A stretch of 64,000 nucleotides of DNA from Methanothrix thermoacetophila PT (GTDB lineage: Archaea; Halobacteriota; Methanosarcinia; Methanotrichales; Methanotrichaceae), in NCBI RefSeq assembly GCF_000014945.1, contig NC_008553.1, forward strand, positions 1,736,001 to 1,800,000. Reading direction: 5' to 3'. Positions 58,234-64,000 of this stretch are shown here, one piece after another. Every line of letters begins with the position of its first letter. The stretch's first letter is position 1. Under the pieces are notes generated by a model that was given only the letters and a program-made list of their open reading frames with translations, made no database searches and was not told where the DNA came from. A program made the translations under genes and the position numbers.

Positions 58234-59619
58234 ATGTCACCGGAACAGAACAGTTCCATAATGGATGCGCTGAGGGATATTGTTGGACCCAGAGTCTCGA
58301 ACTCGCTAGCCGAGCTCTGCTGCTACTCCTGCGATGCATCTCAGGTATACGGCCTTCCTGAGTGCGTCGTTCGACCTCTGACGAGAGAAGAGGTATCCAG
58401 GATTCTCAAGCTCGCATACGAATACGAAATTCCCGTGACAGCCAGAGGCGCCGGCACCGGACTCGCTGGAGGCGCTGTGCCTGTAAGAGGTGGCGTAGTT
58501 CTGGACATGTCCGGAATGAATAAAATCCTGGAGATTGATGTGGAGAACCTGCAGGTTCACGTAGAGCCTGGGGTTGTTGTTGAGCAGCTCAACAGAGCTC
58601 TCAGACCACACGGCTTCTTCTTCCCACCGAACCCGGGAAGCTCCAGCGTCTGCACGATAGGGGGGCTGATATCTAACAATGGAAGTGGCATGAGGTGCGT
58701 GAAGTATGGCACCACGAAGAGCTATGTTCTGGATCTTGAGGTCGTGCTGGCCGACGGTACCGTTATTCGGACAGGCTCTAAGGTCCTGAAGTCATCCGCT
58801 GGTTATGATCTGACGCGACTCATGGTCGGGGCAGAGGGTACGCTCGGAGTCATAACAGCTGCCAGGCTCAGGATCGCGCCTATGCCGAAGAGGCGGAGGC
58901 TGGTCATGGCCTCCTTTGAGAGCGCTGAGCTCGCAGGCATGGCCGTCGTGAAGGCATTCTCCGCGGGCATCGTGCCGTCTGCATGCGAGATACTGGACAG
59001 CACGACTGTAAAGGTTCTCAGGCGATGCGATCCGAACATAGTGCTTCCAGACGGTGATATCTTGCTCTTCGAGGTCGATGGAACAGATCTATCGACATCA
59101 GAGGATGCGAAAAGGGTATCTGAGGTCTGCGCTGGCCTGGCACAGAGCATCAGAGTCGCATCCGATCAGAGGGAGATGTCTGAGATATGGGCTGCCCGGG
59201 AGCTGGTCGGCGCCGCGATCTCCAGGCTCGATCCATCGAAGAGTCGCATCTATGTTGGAGAGGATGTGGGGGTTCCGATGAAGGAGATTCCCAATCTCAT
59301 GAGAAAGGTCCAGGAGATATCGGACAGTACCGGCATCCCGGCGATGAAGTACGGCCATATCGGCGATGGCAACCTTCACGTCGCATGGTTCATAGATGTG
59401 AGCAGTGAAGAGGAATGGAGCAGGCTCAGGAGAGCAGCGGACATGATCCACAGAGCTGCCATAGAGCTCGGTGGGACCGTGAGCTCTGAGCACGGAATCG
59501 GCGGGGCGAGAGCTGGATACATGGAGATGCAGTGGGGGCCAGCTCTGGAGATCATGCGCGCGATCAAACGCGCTCTGGATCCGAAGGGGATACTGAACCC
59601 GGGCAAGCTGGGTCTGTGA
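58234..59619 (+). CDS. FAD-linked 2-hydroxyacid oxidase/dehydrogenase (GlcD/D-lactate dehydrogenase type)
   Basis: 461 aa. The FAD-binding PCMH domain has ARGAGTGLAGGAVPVRGGVVLDMSGMNKI near residue 70 and GSSSVCTIGGLISNNGSGMRCVKYG near residue 130. The C-terminal cap domain holds the substrate-site HIGDGNLHV and SEHGIGGARAGYM. It oxidises a 2-hydroxyacid such as glycolate or lactate; the substrate cannot be read from sequence. The Fe-S partner follows after nine bases. GGAGGAG ends one base before ATG 58234, which is unusually close; ATG 58261 is another possible start. Confidence 0.9.
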   Translation: MSPEQNSSIMDALRDIVGPRVSNSLAELCCYSCDASQVYGLPECVVRPLTREEVSRILKLAYEYEIPVTARGAGTGLAGGAVPVRGGVVLDMSGMNKILEIDVENLQVHVEPGVVVEQLNRALRPHGFFFPPNPGSSSVCTIGGLISNNGSGMRCVKYGTTKSYVLDLEVVLADGTVIRTGSKVLKSSAGYDLTRLMVGAEGTLGVITAARLRIAPMPKRRRLVMASFESAELAGMAVVKAFSAGIVPSACEILDSTTVKVLRRCDPNIVLPDGDILLFEVDGTDLSTSEDAKRVSEVCAGLAQSIRVASDQREMSEIWAARELVGAAISRLDPSKSRIYVGEDVGVPMKEIPNLMRKVQEISDSTGIPAMKYGHIGDGNLHVAWFIDVSSEEEWSRLRRAADMIHRAAIELGGTVSSEHGIGGARAGYMEMQWGPALEIMRAIKRALDPKGILNPGKLGL

Positions 59620-59628
59620 GGGACTAGG

Positions 59629-60696
59629 ATGGTCGACGTCGATCAGATCCGGCGATGCGTTCGATGCGGTGCGTGCAGAGCGGTATGTCCCAGCTTCGAG
59701 GTTTTGGGGTGGGAGTCGTTCAACACCCGCGGGAGAATGATTCTCATCGGGAAAATCCTCGACGATTCGGACGGCTCCTGGGCGCTGGAGAGCCTCGGGA
59801 CGTGCACCACCTGCGCCCTCTGCTCGCAGATGTGCCCTGCTGGAGTCACCCCCTCGAAGGTCGTGGAGGATGCGAGGAGGGTGCTTGCGTCCAGGAATAT
59901 CACTGGAGCCTGGCAGATCGAGCTCCGCGACAGGATATCATCCACAGGAAACAGTCTTGGGGAGGCGGGGCGGAGGCATGGGTGGCTGAGCATGCTTGGT
60001 ACGGATGCATCCTCAGATGTAAAGGCCTTAGATGTAAAGGCGGATCAGGTATACTTCGCGGGATGCATGGCATCATACAGATATCCGGAGACTGCAGCGA
60101 AGACGTTCGGGATTCTGAGAAAATTTGGTGTATCACTCCTCCCATCGGAGCGGTGCTGTGGCTCTCCGCTTCTCAGAACCGGTTTGGATGCTTCGGAATG
60201 CATGGAGGAGAACCTGCGTCAGATAGATGAGATGGACGTGGATGTTGTGATAACAGGGTGTGCCGGCTGCTATACCACGCTCAAAAACGATTACGGTCTC
60301 AAGGTCATGAGCGTGGCAGAGTTTCTTGCAGCCCGCATATCCGAGCTGGAGATCGGGCCTCTGGATTTCACTGTCACGTACCATGATCCATGCCACCTCG
60401 GCAGGGTGAACGGCATCTTCGATCAGCCCAGGAAGGTCATAAGGGAGATCTGCGAGCTCGAGGAGATGAGGAGCAGCAGAGAGCTCGCGAGATGCTGTGG
60501 CGGGGGAGGGGGTGTCAGGGCTGGATACAGGGAGATCTCGCTTGAGATAGCGAGAAGGAGGCTCGCTGATGCCCCTCCAGAGGCGAGGTACATCGTAACA
60601 GCGTGCCCGATGTGCGTCAGAAATCTGAACGAGGCGGGAGGCCACGGCAGGGTCATCGATCTCGTGGACCTCGTGGCGATGGCGTGCAGGAAATGA
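59629..60696 (+). CDS. Fe-S oxidoreductase with two CCG domains (GlcF/HdrD-like)
   Basis: 355 aa. Two ferredoxin motifs lie near residues 10 and 62 (CVRCGACRAVCP, CTTCALCSQMCP). Two cysteine-rich CCG domains follow (CCGSPLLRTG with CAGCYTT; CHLGRV with CCGGGGG and CPMC), as in GlcF, LldE and HdrD. It would take electrons from the FAD subunit encoded just upstream. Its likeness to HdrD hints that the acceptor may be a membrane quinone-like carrier or a disulfide; which one is not known. The start ATG follows the oxidase stop by nine bases. Confidence 0.9.
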   Translation: MVDVDQIRRCVRCGACRAVCPSFEVLGWESFNTRGRMILIGKILDDSDGSWALESLGTCTTCALCSQMCPAGVTPSKVVEDARRVLASRNITGAWQIELRDRISSTGNSLGEAGRRHGWLSMLGTDASSDVKALDVKADQVYFAGCMASYRYPETAAKTFGILRKFGVSLLPSERCCGSPLLRTGLDASECMEENLRQIDEMDVDVVITGCAGCYTTLKNDYGLKVMSVAEFLAARISELEIGPLDFTVTYHDPCHLGRVNGIFDQPRKVIREICELEEMRSSRELARCCGGGGGVRAGYREISLEIARRRLADAPPEARYIVTACPMCVRNLNEAGGHGRVIDLVDLVAMACRK

Positions 60697-60937: not shown

Positions 60938-61639
60938 ATGGATTTGAAATCTGTTGCTGTACTGATGTTGGTCTGCCTCTCTGCTGCATCGATCGCATCT
61001 GCAGCGGACGTCCCCACGATAACAGTTGTCGGGGAGGGCAGTGTGACAGTGCCCGCGGATGTCGTGTACGTTTCCGTATCGGCATCAAGCGATAATGAGA
61101 ATGTGACAGAGGCGTATGCGGAGAGCTCTGAGAAGCTGAACGATACTCTGGATGCGATAAAGAATGCATGCACCGAGAACTGTGAGATACTTCAGGGATA
61201 CTCCACTGGGATCCAGAGCACGAAGGTATGCAGCAGGGGCGCCTCGAATGAGAGCATCTGCGTGAATCAGACCATTGTGACCGTATCCGCGTCGATACGC
61301 CTGCAGAACCCTGATCAGAGGACAATAGAGAGCATCAAGCAGACCGCAGAGAGCACAGGGGCTTACGCAGCTGTGACAGGCTATGCGCTGAGCGATGCCA
61401 CGGCTGCAAAGAACGAGGCGAGGAAGAAGGCCGTTGAAAACGCCAGGGCGACAGCAGAGGCGATGGTCAGCGCAGCAGGCGGAAGGCTTGGAAAGATCGT
61501 GGACATCACAGAGAGCCCGCTTTATCTGTGGGACATACCGTTTGGCATCTTCGGACCATCTGTCGAGCCGAGCACGACAGAGCCTGGGATGGTCGAGGTG
61601 AAGACGACGGTGCTGGTGACATATGAGATCGTGAGCTGA
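60938..61639 (+). CDS. Secreted SIMPL (DUF541) domain protein
   Basis: 233 aa. A signal peptide (MDLKSVAVLMLVCLSAASIASAA) is followed by a SIMPL domain: TITVVGEGSVTVPADVVYVSVSASS near residue 30, KLNDTLDAIKNACTENCEILQGYSTGIQ, then ATAAKNEARKKAVENARATAEAMVSAAGGRLGKIVDITE. Such proteins are found outside the membrane, and their function is mostly unknown. ATG 60938 follows GGGGGATTG; TTG 60932 is the alternative. A TATA-like TTTTAATATGG lies near 60900. Confidence 0.85.
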   Translation: MDLKSVAVLMLVCLSAASIASAADVPTITVVGEGSVTVPADVVYVSVSASSDNENVTEAYAESSEKLNDTLDAIKNACTENCEILQGYSTGIQSTKVCSRGASNESICVNQTIVTVSASIRLQNPDQRTIESIKQTAESTGAYAAVTGYALSDATAAKNEARKKAVENARATAEAMVSAAGGRLGKIVDITESPLYLWDIPFGIFGPSVEPSTTEPGMVEVKTTVLVTYEIVS

Positions 61640-61792
61640 GTGGAGTTTTCCTGGGGAATGGAGAGCGGCCATGGTGCGGCAGCGCGGACTGTGGCCGGGC
61701 CACATCACACCTCCACACGCATATCCTCTGACTGTTGCAGGAAAGCAGGCAGAAGACCCTCCCCCCTTCAGGGATAGGGAGGAAGTCACTTT

Positions 61793-62701
61793 TCATACCA
61801 TTTTGTTTCTTGGATGCGACCACACCGGCCAGACCTCCATCTCCTCCAGCGCCTCCGATATCATGATATCAGTCATGGCGACGGCGGGAAAGATAATTCT
61901 CGCATTCTCGATTGGGCCGTATAGAACTAGGCTTGCGCAGAACGATGCTGCAAGGGCTGAGGCGGATGCGTCACATGATCTTCTCATGTCTTTATCCCTC
62001 GATCTCAGCCACTCCCATGAGCTCGCAGCGTTGTGCATGCCAGAGCATATCGGCAGGCCGAGCTTCGCCTTCGCAACAATTGCGAACCTCAACGCGGCGC
62101 CTGCCCCACTCCCGAGTGGCGCCACGCCCGGGTCCAGGAGCATGTTGTTGATCCCAGCATTACTGGCGATTGCCAGGAGACCACCATCACGTCTCAGCAG
62201 ATCCATCCTGGATTCAACGCTCGATGCATTCGGACTGAAAGCTAGCAGTATCGCCGAGTCTATATCAGATTCTCTCAGCAAACCCATCTCTTTCTCAGTG
62301 GACGCCAGACCAATGCTGTTGTAGATCGTGCGATCCGCGTATCCAACCTCGGTCACGTGTATTGCCATCTCTCCCCTTGTCTTCGGATCGGACGAGTCTA
62401 TTATCAACGGGCCGTTCCAGATGGGATCGATGAAATCGAGATATCGTTCAAAAGCGCGCCGTGTGCTCGCGAATATGTGCAGCACTCCTGGATTTCCGGT
62501 CACCTCTGAGATCTCAACCTGCCTGTTTATGAGCTCCTCAGCCCTCTTAGCATCAAATATGCCCCTCTCCTCGTCGGAGACTATGCTGTGGCCGTGGTAG
62601 AAGATGGTCCCGGCCAAAGCTGTGGGAAGCTCACCCGGCTGGCCTCCGATGCGAAGCCCGGCGATGTTGATCACCGACTGATCCCTGGCAAATCTGAACA
62701 A
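61793..62701 (-). CDS. mtxH: MtrH-like methyltransferase of an MtxA/MtxH pair
   Basis: 302 aa, related to subunit H of the Mtr complex, which moves the methyl group from methyl-tetrahydromethanopterin to the corrinoid. Typical segments are INIAGLRIGGQPGELPTALAGTIFYHGHSIV at the start, NPGVLHIFASTRRAFERYLDFI, PLIIDSSDPKTR, and NNMLLDPGVAPLGSGAGAALRF. It starts with TTG at 62701 behind GAGGTGAT, 31 bases inside the end of mtxA, so the two are coupled. No mtr membrane subunits lie beside it, unlike the main mtrEDCBAFGH operon, so it is read as the Methanosarcina mtxH type. Partner acceptor unknown. Confidence 0.85.
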   Translation of the reverse strand: MFRFARDQSVINIAGLRIGGQPGELPTALAGTIFYHGHSIVSDEERGIFDAKRAEELINRQVEISEVTGNPGVLHIFASTRRAFERYLDFIDPIWNGPLIIDSSDPKTRGEMAIHVTEVGYADRTIYNSIGLASTEKEMGLLRESDIDSAILLAFSPNASSVESRMDLLRRDGGLLAIASNAGINNMLLDPGVAPLGSGAGAALRFAIVAKAKLGLPICSGMHNAASSWEWLRSRDKDMRRSCDASASALAASFCASLVLYGPIENARIIFPAVAMTDIMISEALEEMEVWPVWSHPRNKMV

Positions 62702-63315
62702 GTGCCATCACCTCTTCCGTCACTTACTGAAGGCAAGTGCTGTTTCTGCGTTAGTGGAAACACCACCCATGTATCCACATCCAGATACACGTCTGGTCCG
62801 AGGCTGACATCGATATCGCTAGGTTGGGACATTGACCTATGCGTTTTTTTGACAACCCCAAAAGGTGGCTCTGGGAACGGCTCGGCGATCTCTCTGTAAT
62901 GATCAACGACCCTCTCGATCTCAGCTACGTCCTCGACCCCTCTCATATCCACAACATCGATCTGCCTGCGGAACCTCTCGACCGCCTCGGGCTGGAGGTT
63001 CTGGATGAACGGTATCGCCCCGGCAGCGCCTATGATTCTGCCGCTGCTGTCTATGCCGTTTCTGTGCAGGGATATTATCGCATCGCCAGGCAGATGACCC
63101 CGCGACTCGGCGCCGCACACAATCAAATATCTTATACTCGGGTTGGAGATGAGATTCACCACGATCTTCTCCACCCCAAGATTCTCGGTCTTGCATGTTC
63201 CGACTATTGCAGCTCCTCTGATCTCCAGGCTGCTGGCAAGTGTGACGACTGCGACGCCCCGTCTCCTGTCGCCAACCCTGTAATCACCGCGAACTGGCGG
63301 CCAGTCATCATCCAT
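62671..63315 (-). CDS. mtxA: Soluble MtrA-like corrinoid protein (MtxA type)
   Basis: 214 aa. It matches MtrA across the corrinoid-binding domain: WPPVRGDYRVG, VAVVTLASS, GTCKTENLGVEKIVVNLISNPSIRYLIVCG, RGHLPGDAIISLHRNGID (the cobalt-ligand histidine) and IGAAGAIPFIQNL. The C-terminal membrane helix of true MtrA is missing; the end (TWVVFPLTQKQHLPSVSDG) is polar, so the protein should be soluble. A stop codon lies directly before ATG 63315, so the start is firm. With mtxH it forms a two-gene operon. The substrate and physiological role are not known. Confidence 0.85.
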   Translation of the reverse strand: MDDDWPPVRGDYRVGDRRRGVAVVTLASSLEIRGAAIVGTCKTENLGVEKIVVNLISNPSIRYLIVCGAESRGHLPGDAIISLHRNGIDSSGRIIGAAGAIPFIQNLQPEAVERFRRQIDVVDMRGVEDVAEIERVVDHYREIAEPFPEPPFGVVKKTHRSMSQPSDIDVSLGPDVYLDVDTWVVFPLTQKQHLPSVSDGRGDGTCSDLPGISR

Positions 63316-63719
63316 CTACTCACGCCCTCACGTGTGGAATACGAGAGGACCTCTCTGCACGCATCCAAGCGCGGTCCGTGCACTTTCATCCTCATCGATC
63401 AAAGCACTGAGAGACAGCTGCTCCTGCTGAAGATCGAAGTCCCGCCGTCCCACGCTGAAGATCTGTGAAAATAATACGATATAACATCTCCGTCACGCCT
63501 TAGGGGCCACCACAGCCTATATATCTCATGAGTTCCATCCTCAATGGCGGTGTCCTATCATCCCGGCCATGGATGCTCTGTCTGGGGGCGACCAGTGAGG
63601 ACAGGCTCCTGGCCAAGTGATAGTGCCTATTCGCCGGATCAGCGGATTGGTCAGGCATCAGATGCTTGGCTATGATACCATCAAACACTGTGAAGTTAGT
63701 TCCAAGGTGGTGACCAACC
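63316..63719. other. Gene-free stretch between mtxA and alba
   Basis: No supported gene. TATA-like CCTATATATCTC at about 63513 may belong to alba on the plus strand, and GTTATATCG on the minus strand near 63478 to mtxA. Nothing else was recognised. Confidence 0.4.
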
Positions 63720-63989
63720 ATGGCAGAAGATGATGTGGTGTTCGTCGGCAATAAACCAGTGATGAACTATGTACTGGCTGTAGTGACCCAGTTCAACAGC
63801 GGTGCGAAGGAAGTCAGGATAATGGCAAGAGGGCGTGCGATCTCCAGAGCTGTCGATGTCGCTGAGGTCTCACGCAGCAGGTTCCTGGGCGATGTTGTGG
63901 TAAAGGACATAAAGATATCGACCGAGACGTTGAACACGGATAGAGGGGAGACCAACGTCTCCGCGATAGAGATCGTACTTGGAAAGTGA
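63720..63989 (+). CDS. albA: Alba DNA/RNA-binding chromatin protein
   Basis: 89 aa, the full length of Alba. Marks are [44 protein letters not shown] near the start, with the basic ARGRAIS that binds DNA, and [24 protein letters not shown] at the end. GGTGGTGA precedes the ATG. It stands alone on the plus strand at the window edge. Confidence 0.96.
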
Positions 63990-64000
63990 TACCTTTACCG

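Follow-up and report, generated by a model that had tools for sequence, protein, structure and literature searches.

A soluble MtxA–MtxH pair of Methanothrix apart from the Mtr complex: a candidate Na+-independent methyl module feeding an anabolic acceptor

What might a pair of genes related to mtrA and mtrH do when it stands away from the genes of the Mtr complex? The question is raised by a locus near the end of the 64,000 nucleotides of the Methanothrix thermoacetophila PT genome that we analysed (hereafter, the window). The initial annotation described an overlapping pair of MtrA and MtrH homologues, and both open reading frames are found on the minus strand. mtxA (62671..63315) encodes a soluble MtrA-family corrinoid protein of 214 aa (Pfam MtrA, 190 bits), and mtxH (61793..62701) encodes an MtrH-family methyl-tetrahydromethanopterin:corrinoid methyltransferase of 302 aa (Pfam MtrH, 331 bits; TIGR01114, 342 bits, above the cut-off). 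mtxH starts with TTG, and a strong Shine-Dalgarno-like match, GAGGTGAT (62707..62714, minus strand), was read off the sequence 5 nt upstream of this start. The two genes indeed overlap by 31 bp (62671..62701, minus strand), and the overlap is strain-specific: in the five other genomes of the genus, the called open reading frames are separated by gaps of about 4–44 bp, and the stop codon of the sister locus L018 is missing in the window strain, where the tail is longer and variable. We ruled out the overlap as a functional sign because it is not conserved in the genus; the conserved meaning is carried by operon order, gene fusion, and co-conservation.

The pair is flanked by a divergent alba gene (63720-63989, plus strand) on one side and by a convergent SIMPL-domain gene on the other. 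It probably forms its own transcription unit without mtxX, starting in the intergenic stretch between mtxA and alba (63316..63719), and an Rfam search of 61500-64000 returned zero matches. Further away in the window, positions 58234-60696 encode a probable 2-hydroxyacid dehydrogenase pair, made up of a GlcD-like FAD oxidase and, after it, an Fe-S protein with a CCG domain that resembles TfrB/GlcF.

The pair could be part of the main complex if it held the only mtrA and mtrH copies. The Methanothrix host, with a genome of 1,879,471 bp, carries one complete mtrEDCBAFGH operon near 1,475,000-1,480,000, each subunit of which was confirmed by Pfam, and has two MtrA genes and two MtrH genes in total. 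The statement that no other mtr genes are present thus holds locally, where none of the MtrBCDEFG partners was found at the mtxAH locus, and fails genome-wide; since a complete operon lies elsewhere, the pair stands as distinct from the main complex. MtxA lacks the C-terminal transmembrane helix, as had been noticed: its maximum Kyte-Doolittle hydropathy after residue 130 is 0.92, compared with 2.21 in the MtrA of the same genome.

The suspected kinship with the mtx genes of Methanosarcina is borne out by phylogeny against MtrA/MtrH and MtxA/MtxH and by a signature residue. In a maximum-likelihood tree that does not include group III MtrA, 47 MtxA sequences including that of the window are set apart from MtrA with support of 100/99. 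A first quick MtxH tree had MtrH mixed among MtxH with no separation; with a careful search and a thinned set, 38 MtxH sequences lie on one side of a branch supported at 95/86. At the position of MtrH Gln75 (window codon 62477-62479, minus strand, mapped on M. mazei MtrH), 51/51 MtxH have His, whereas the four MtrH compared all have Gln. With profiles built from other families only, the window MtxA scores 235 bits against 172 bits for the genome's own MtrA, and MtxH 376 against 364 bits; this latter gap is small, so the placement of MtxH rests on the tree and His75. Judged by sequence, the window pair belongs to the MtxA/MtxH kind already described from Methanosarcinales, in which mtxX, a group II MtrA gene, and a subgroup II MtrH gene share the operon mtxXAH (Wang et al. 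2015, PMC4632066; Harms and Thauer 1997). A search of viral contigs for relatives found none, and a search of plasmids gave only distant MtrH/CmuB and MtrA-like matches.

The pair retains the residues expected of both cofactor sites. Alignment to PDB 5LAA matches MtxA His74 (codon 63094-63096) with MtrA His84, the cobalt ligand, and Glu44 (codon 63184-63186) with MtrA Glu54, which is linked to that ligand (Wagner et al., PMC4915002); the GAIPF motif lies at 63007-63021, all on the minus strand. Both residues and most of GAIPF are invariant in 14 MtxA homologues. The pterin-binding residues proposed for MtrH (M. mazei structure paper, PMC12774963; also PMC10998594), mapped on M. mazei MtrH, include D102 (62396-62398), N128 (62318-62320), D190 (62132-62134), and N224 (62030-62032) of the window MtxH, again on the minus strand. 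T32, D102, N128, D190, H223, and N224 are identical in 51/51 MtxH, leaving six of the seven pocket positions unchanged, the seventh being the Gln75 position. Because the pterin and corrinoid sites are kept, methyl transfer from methyl-tetrahydrosarcinapterin (CH3-H4SPT) to Co(I)-MtxA is a well-supported prediction for the first half-reaction.

Gene order indicates that MtxA and MtxH act together, because the two genes are adjacent in most loci and are fused into a single open reading frame with both domains in genomes G085 and G089; G087 has an open frame of equal length at the MtxA match. These natural in-frame fusions of genus g16 lie beside mtxX (L056 6831-8192; L057 5671-7032). The order mtxX-mtxA-mtxH is seen in Methanosarcinaceae and part of f5. 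None of the Methanotrichaceae loci that we read has mtxX beside mtxAH; in the host genome, mtxX (800701-801261) lies about 1 Mb from mtxAH, directly after mmp2. This arrangement, with mtxX (Mmp4) directly after the marker 2 gene (TIGR03267), was seen in both Methanothrix genomes examined for it, the host (L039 6639-8411) and one other (L048 4054-6008). As mmp2 precedes mtxX in Methanothrix and directly precedes mtxAH in an f18 locus (L049), the gene context suggests a functional link among marker 2, MtxX, and MtxAH.

Other neighbours are less informative. Genome G018 keeps both mtxA and mtxH on one chromosome, with 232 kb between them (L070 6484-7161; L035 6855-7784), the HTH/KaiC pair remaining with mtxA and acnX with mtxH, as in relatives. 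Since each split gene kept its own neighbours, positional inertia suffices to explain them, and we set aside acnX, hisC, mtd, cooSF, and KaiC/HTH as main evidence for functional partners. In Methanotrichaceae outside the genus (L030 5429-7002 and 3398-4222, and others), mtxH is followed by a pair of genes for the large and swivel subunits of AcnX (aconitase X) and further on by mtd, an association that is probably positional.

Distribution bears on the role of the pair. In a class survey of 156 genomes with an MtxA profile built partly from the surveyed families, the lowest MtxA scored 264 bits and the next match 214 bits, and MtxA was present in 91 genomes by count of the listed matches. The names behind our survey labels were inferred (f1, Methanotrichaceae; f3, Methanosarcinaceae; f5, ANME-2-like; f7, Methanoperedens-like; g17, Methanolobus-like). 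In seven genomes from three other families of the phylum (f12, f18, and f22; 86–97% complete), MtxA was the only MtrA-family match, and a search of the same genomes for McrA gave no match. The lack of an McrA match in 7/7 mtxAH genomes, a negative search result in metagenome-assembled genomes, is unlikely to be due to chance. MtxA and MtxH of these genomes group with the forms of Methanosarcinaceae and f5. Their occurrence makes it unlikely, as far as gene content tells, that the function of mtxAH is specific to methanogenesis, and MtrAH homologues in a genome are not in themselves evidence for a Na+ pump or for methanogenesis.

Some of these genomes place mtxAH close to a methionine synthase gene. 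Two f22 loci (L050 and L051) have mtxA-mtxH-DHH-like-mmp14-mesA-thyA-mch on one strand, and an f12 locus (L054) has mtxA-mtxH-mmp14-mesA-thyA; mmp14-mesA follows mtxAH, or mtxAH-DHH, at a spacing of about 0.4 kb, and of 0.65 kb in L054. The clustered mesA scores 333 bits against NF002119 (cut-off 258). The name DHH-like comes from reading the sequence of that gene, for which Pfam gave no significant match. In these genomes, which are about 1 Mb in size and gave no match to McrA, methanogenesis marker 14 stands beside methionine synthase and mtxAH (L050 6676-13611; L051; L054).

We tentatively propose, giving it somewhat less than an even chance, that MtxA and MtxH form a soluble, Na+-independent module that passes the methyl group of CH3-H4SPT via the MtxA corrinoid to an acceptor in anabolism, with homocysteine as the most plausible one. 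mtxAH would be a paralogue of the two catalytic Mtr subunits working outside the membrane complex. The TIM-barrel protein MtxH would bind CH3-H4SPT and transfer its methyl group to Co(I) of the MtxA corrinoid, with His74 as the lower ligand, and methyl-MtxA would then methylate a cytosolic acceptor in the absence of Na+ pumping. This acceptor would most likely be homocysteine, via a core methionine synthase (MesC in the host, MesA in the clustered relatives), so that methyl groups might be diverted into biosynthesis, perhaps of methionine, rather than energy production. The initial annotation envisaged methyl transfer between methanopterin and an unspecified partner without sodium pumping; such transfer is possible in principle for a soluble pair distinct from Mtr, and homocysteine, through the mesA cluster, is now added as a candidate acceptor. 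We infer both the direction of transfer and the acceptor, the acceptor with less confidence than the first half-reaction.

MesA uses methylcobalamin in vitro and not methyl-H4MPT, and Price et al. predicted MtrA as the donor for MesA and CoFeSP as that for MesC (PMC7857596). According to the account given in PMC7005905, an earlier proposal suspected a corrinoid protein of unknown function as the donor. Our acceptor hypothesis would extend these proposals as a candidate, the mtxAH-mesA cluster making MtxA a candidate donor for MesA. The case for MtxA as the donor for host MesC is weaker, because MesC persists without mtxAH and because most of the genomes checked have CoFeSP at hand. The host MesC (genome 1718408-1719370, about 79 kb from mtxAH) was detected with NF004712 and not with PF01717. 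MesC is present and mtxAH missing in G033, G119, G084, G067, G053, and G039, so MtxA would not be an obligate MesC donor, and a test for a strict MesC-MtxA coupling did not find one. CoFeSP subunits are also present in most mtxAH-bearing genomes checked; arguing for MtxA as the sole donor from a lack of CoFeSP was discarded, because six of the seven genomes with no McrA match have strong CdhD/CdhE-like matches. Against a methionine link, the cluster is known from three related genomes (L050, L051, and L054), and mtxX, the usual neighbour in Methanosarcinaceae, is not explained by a methionine donor. The more specific reading, in which MtxA-MtxH is a dedicated donor carrying methyl groups from methyl-tetrahydromethanopterin to archaeal core methionine synthases, as an anabolic B12 module persisting without Mcr and Mtr, is therefore possible but doubtful.

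The main rival to an anabolic acceptor is the reverse direction, in which MtxA would be methylated by an external methyl source or by a different methyl-corrinoid protein, with MtxH then loading tetrahydrosarcinapterin for an oxidative or Wood-Ljungdahl branch. Harms and Thauer (1997; cited in PMC4632066) suggested this direction for mtx, and it has also been suggested for MtrAH of non-methanogens (PMC9635834). Among soluble relatives of MtrH, the closest that have been characterised are MtgA and MtoA, both of which work from methyl-corrinoid to tetrahydrofolate or H4MPT (PDB 6SJ8, PMC8630106). In line with this direction, other Methanotrichaceae have mtd and cooS/cooF at distances of a few kb, and a gene for a large CODH-like subunit lies near two f18 loci (L052 and L055). 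Against it, in the Methanotrichaceae loci that we read, none of the genes adjacent to mtxAH was recognised as coding for a substrate:corrinoid methyltransferase. Moreover, the host family, which is regarded as strictly aceticlastic, keeps mtxAH, whereas the pair is missing from g17 and g32, two genera that probably correspond to Methanolobus and Methanomethylovorans, both methylotrophic. We consider the reverse direction unlikely.

Less probable still is a Na+-uncoupled bypass of Mtr, in which methyl-MtxA would donate to coenzyme M via a soluble methyltransferase as a shortcut at a high Na+ gradient. It would share the first half-reaction, with its pterin-site residues, with the anabolic reading and might be chemically simple, transfer from CH3-H4SPT to coenzyme M being the main methyl flux in the host. 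However, it is disfavoured because the module occurs where McrA was not found: in those seven genomes, which also lack another MtrA match, coenzyme M methylation for methane would be purposeless. In addition, no coenzyme M methyltransferase gene was recognised beside mtxAH.

That MtxA and MtxH serve within the Mtr complex as alternative subunits is very unlikely. Their homology to MtrA and MtrH would fit such a role, as would Arg211 of the MtrB interface, which is Arg in 47 and Lys in four of the 51 MtxH. Asp5, which forms a salt bridge with MtrB, is lost in 50/51 MtxH and retained in one; of the two MtrB contacts one is mostly kept and the other nearly always lost, and docking of MtxH on Mtr is not well supported. 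The missing membrane anchor of MtxA, the separate clades, and the presence of the pair in genomes where another MtrA was not found also speak against it. As a separate observation, some g5, f6, and f7 genomes have a second mtr-like operon with genes resembling Mtr membrane subunits and an anchored MtrA (MtrA and MtrH in L072, L073, and L078; MtrA in L077; MtrH in g5 and f6), an operon distinct from both mtx and the standard mtr.

Of the 33 high-quality genomes of the host's family, 32 retain MtxA, with no adjoining mtxX. This retention, the MtxA-MtxH fusion, and mtxAH in genomes without a match to McrA or another MtrA are new here. Within the genus, dN/dS is 0.10–0.39 for mtxA and 0.07–0.12 for mtxH, values indicating strong purifying selection on both genes. 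We give almost no credence to a decaying, functionless relic, which the detachment of mtxX from mtxAH, the separation of mtxA and mtxH in two genera (L029 and L031; G018), and the absence of the pair from several lineages might suggest, but which is contradicted by this selection, by the retention across the family, and by the invariant catalytic residues.

Compared with MtrA and MtrH of the Mtr complex, MtxA and MtxH share the cobalt-ligand His, the Glu54 equivalent, the GAIPF segment, and the pterin-site residues, and differ in the absent C-terminal transmembrane helix of MtxA and in the Gln75-to-His exchange and lost Asp5 contact of MtxH. With the MtxA and MtxH of mtxXAH operons they share the clades, the lack of a membrane anchor, the order of mtxA before mtxH, and His75, whereas the Methanothrix pair stands alone with mtxX elsewhere. 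Because the sequence placement is clear, we read this detachment as a linkage difference only; a definition requiring the operon would exclude the window pair. The cytoplasmic MtrA homologue of Methanothermus fervidus is likewise a soluble MtrA domain binding cobalamin, but the window MtxA is more divergent (identity among methanogen MtrA and cytoplasmic homologues is 60–97%; PMC4915002) and has an MtrH homologue as its partner. MtgA of Desulfitobacterium (PDB 6SJ8) and MtoA of Methermicoccus are also soluble MtrH-family methyltransferases with a separate corrinoid protein, that of MtoA lying outside the MtrA family (PMC8630106). Unlike mtxH, their genes are each located with a substrate-specific methyltransferase. 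The corrinoid partner of MtgA is presumably not an MtrA-family protein either. The core methionine synthases MesA and MesC are not homologous to MtxAH but need a methyl-corrinoid donor, and mesA is clustered with mtxAH in f12 and f22 (PMC7857596 for the synthases). If the donor reading were true, the two proteins MtxA and MtxH would in effect correspond, in archaea, to the folate and cobalamin domains of MetH.
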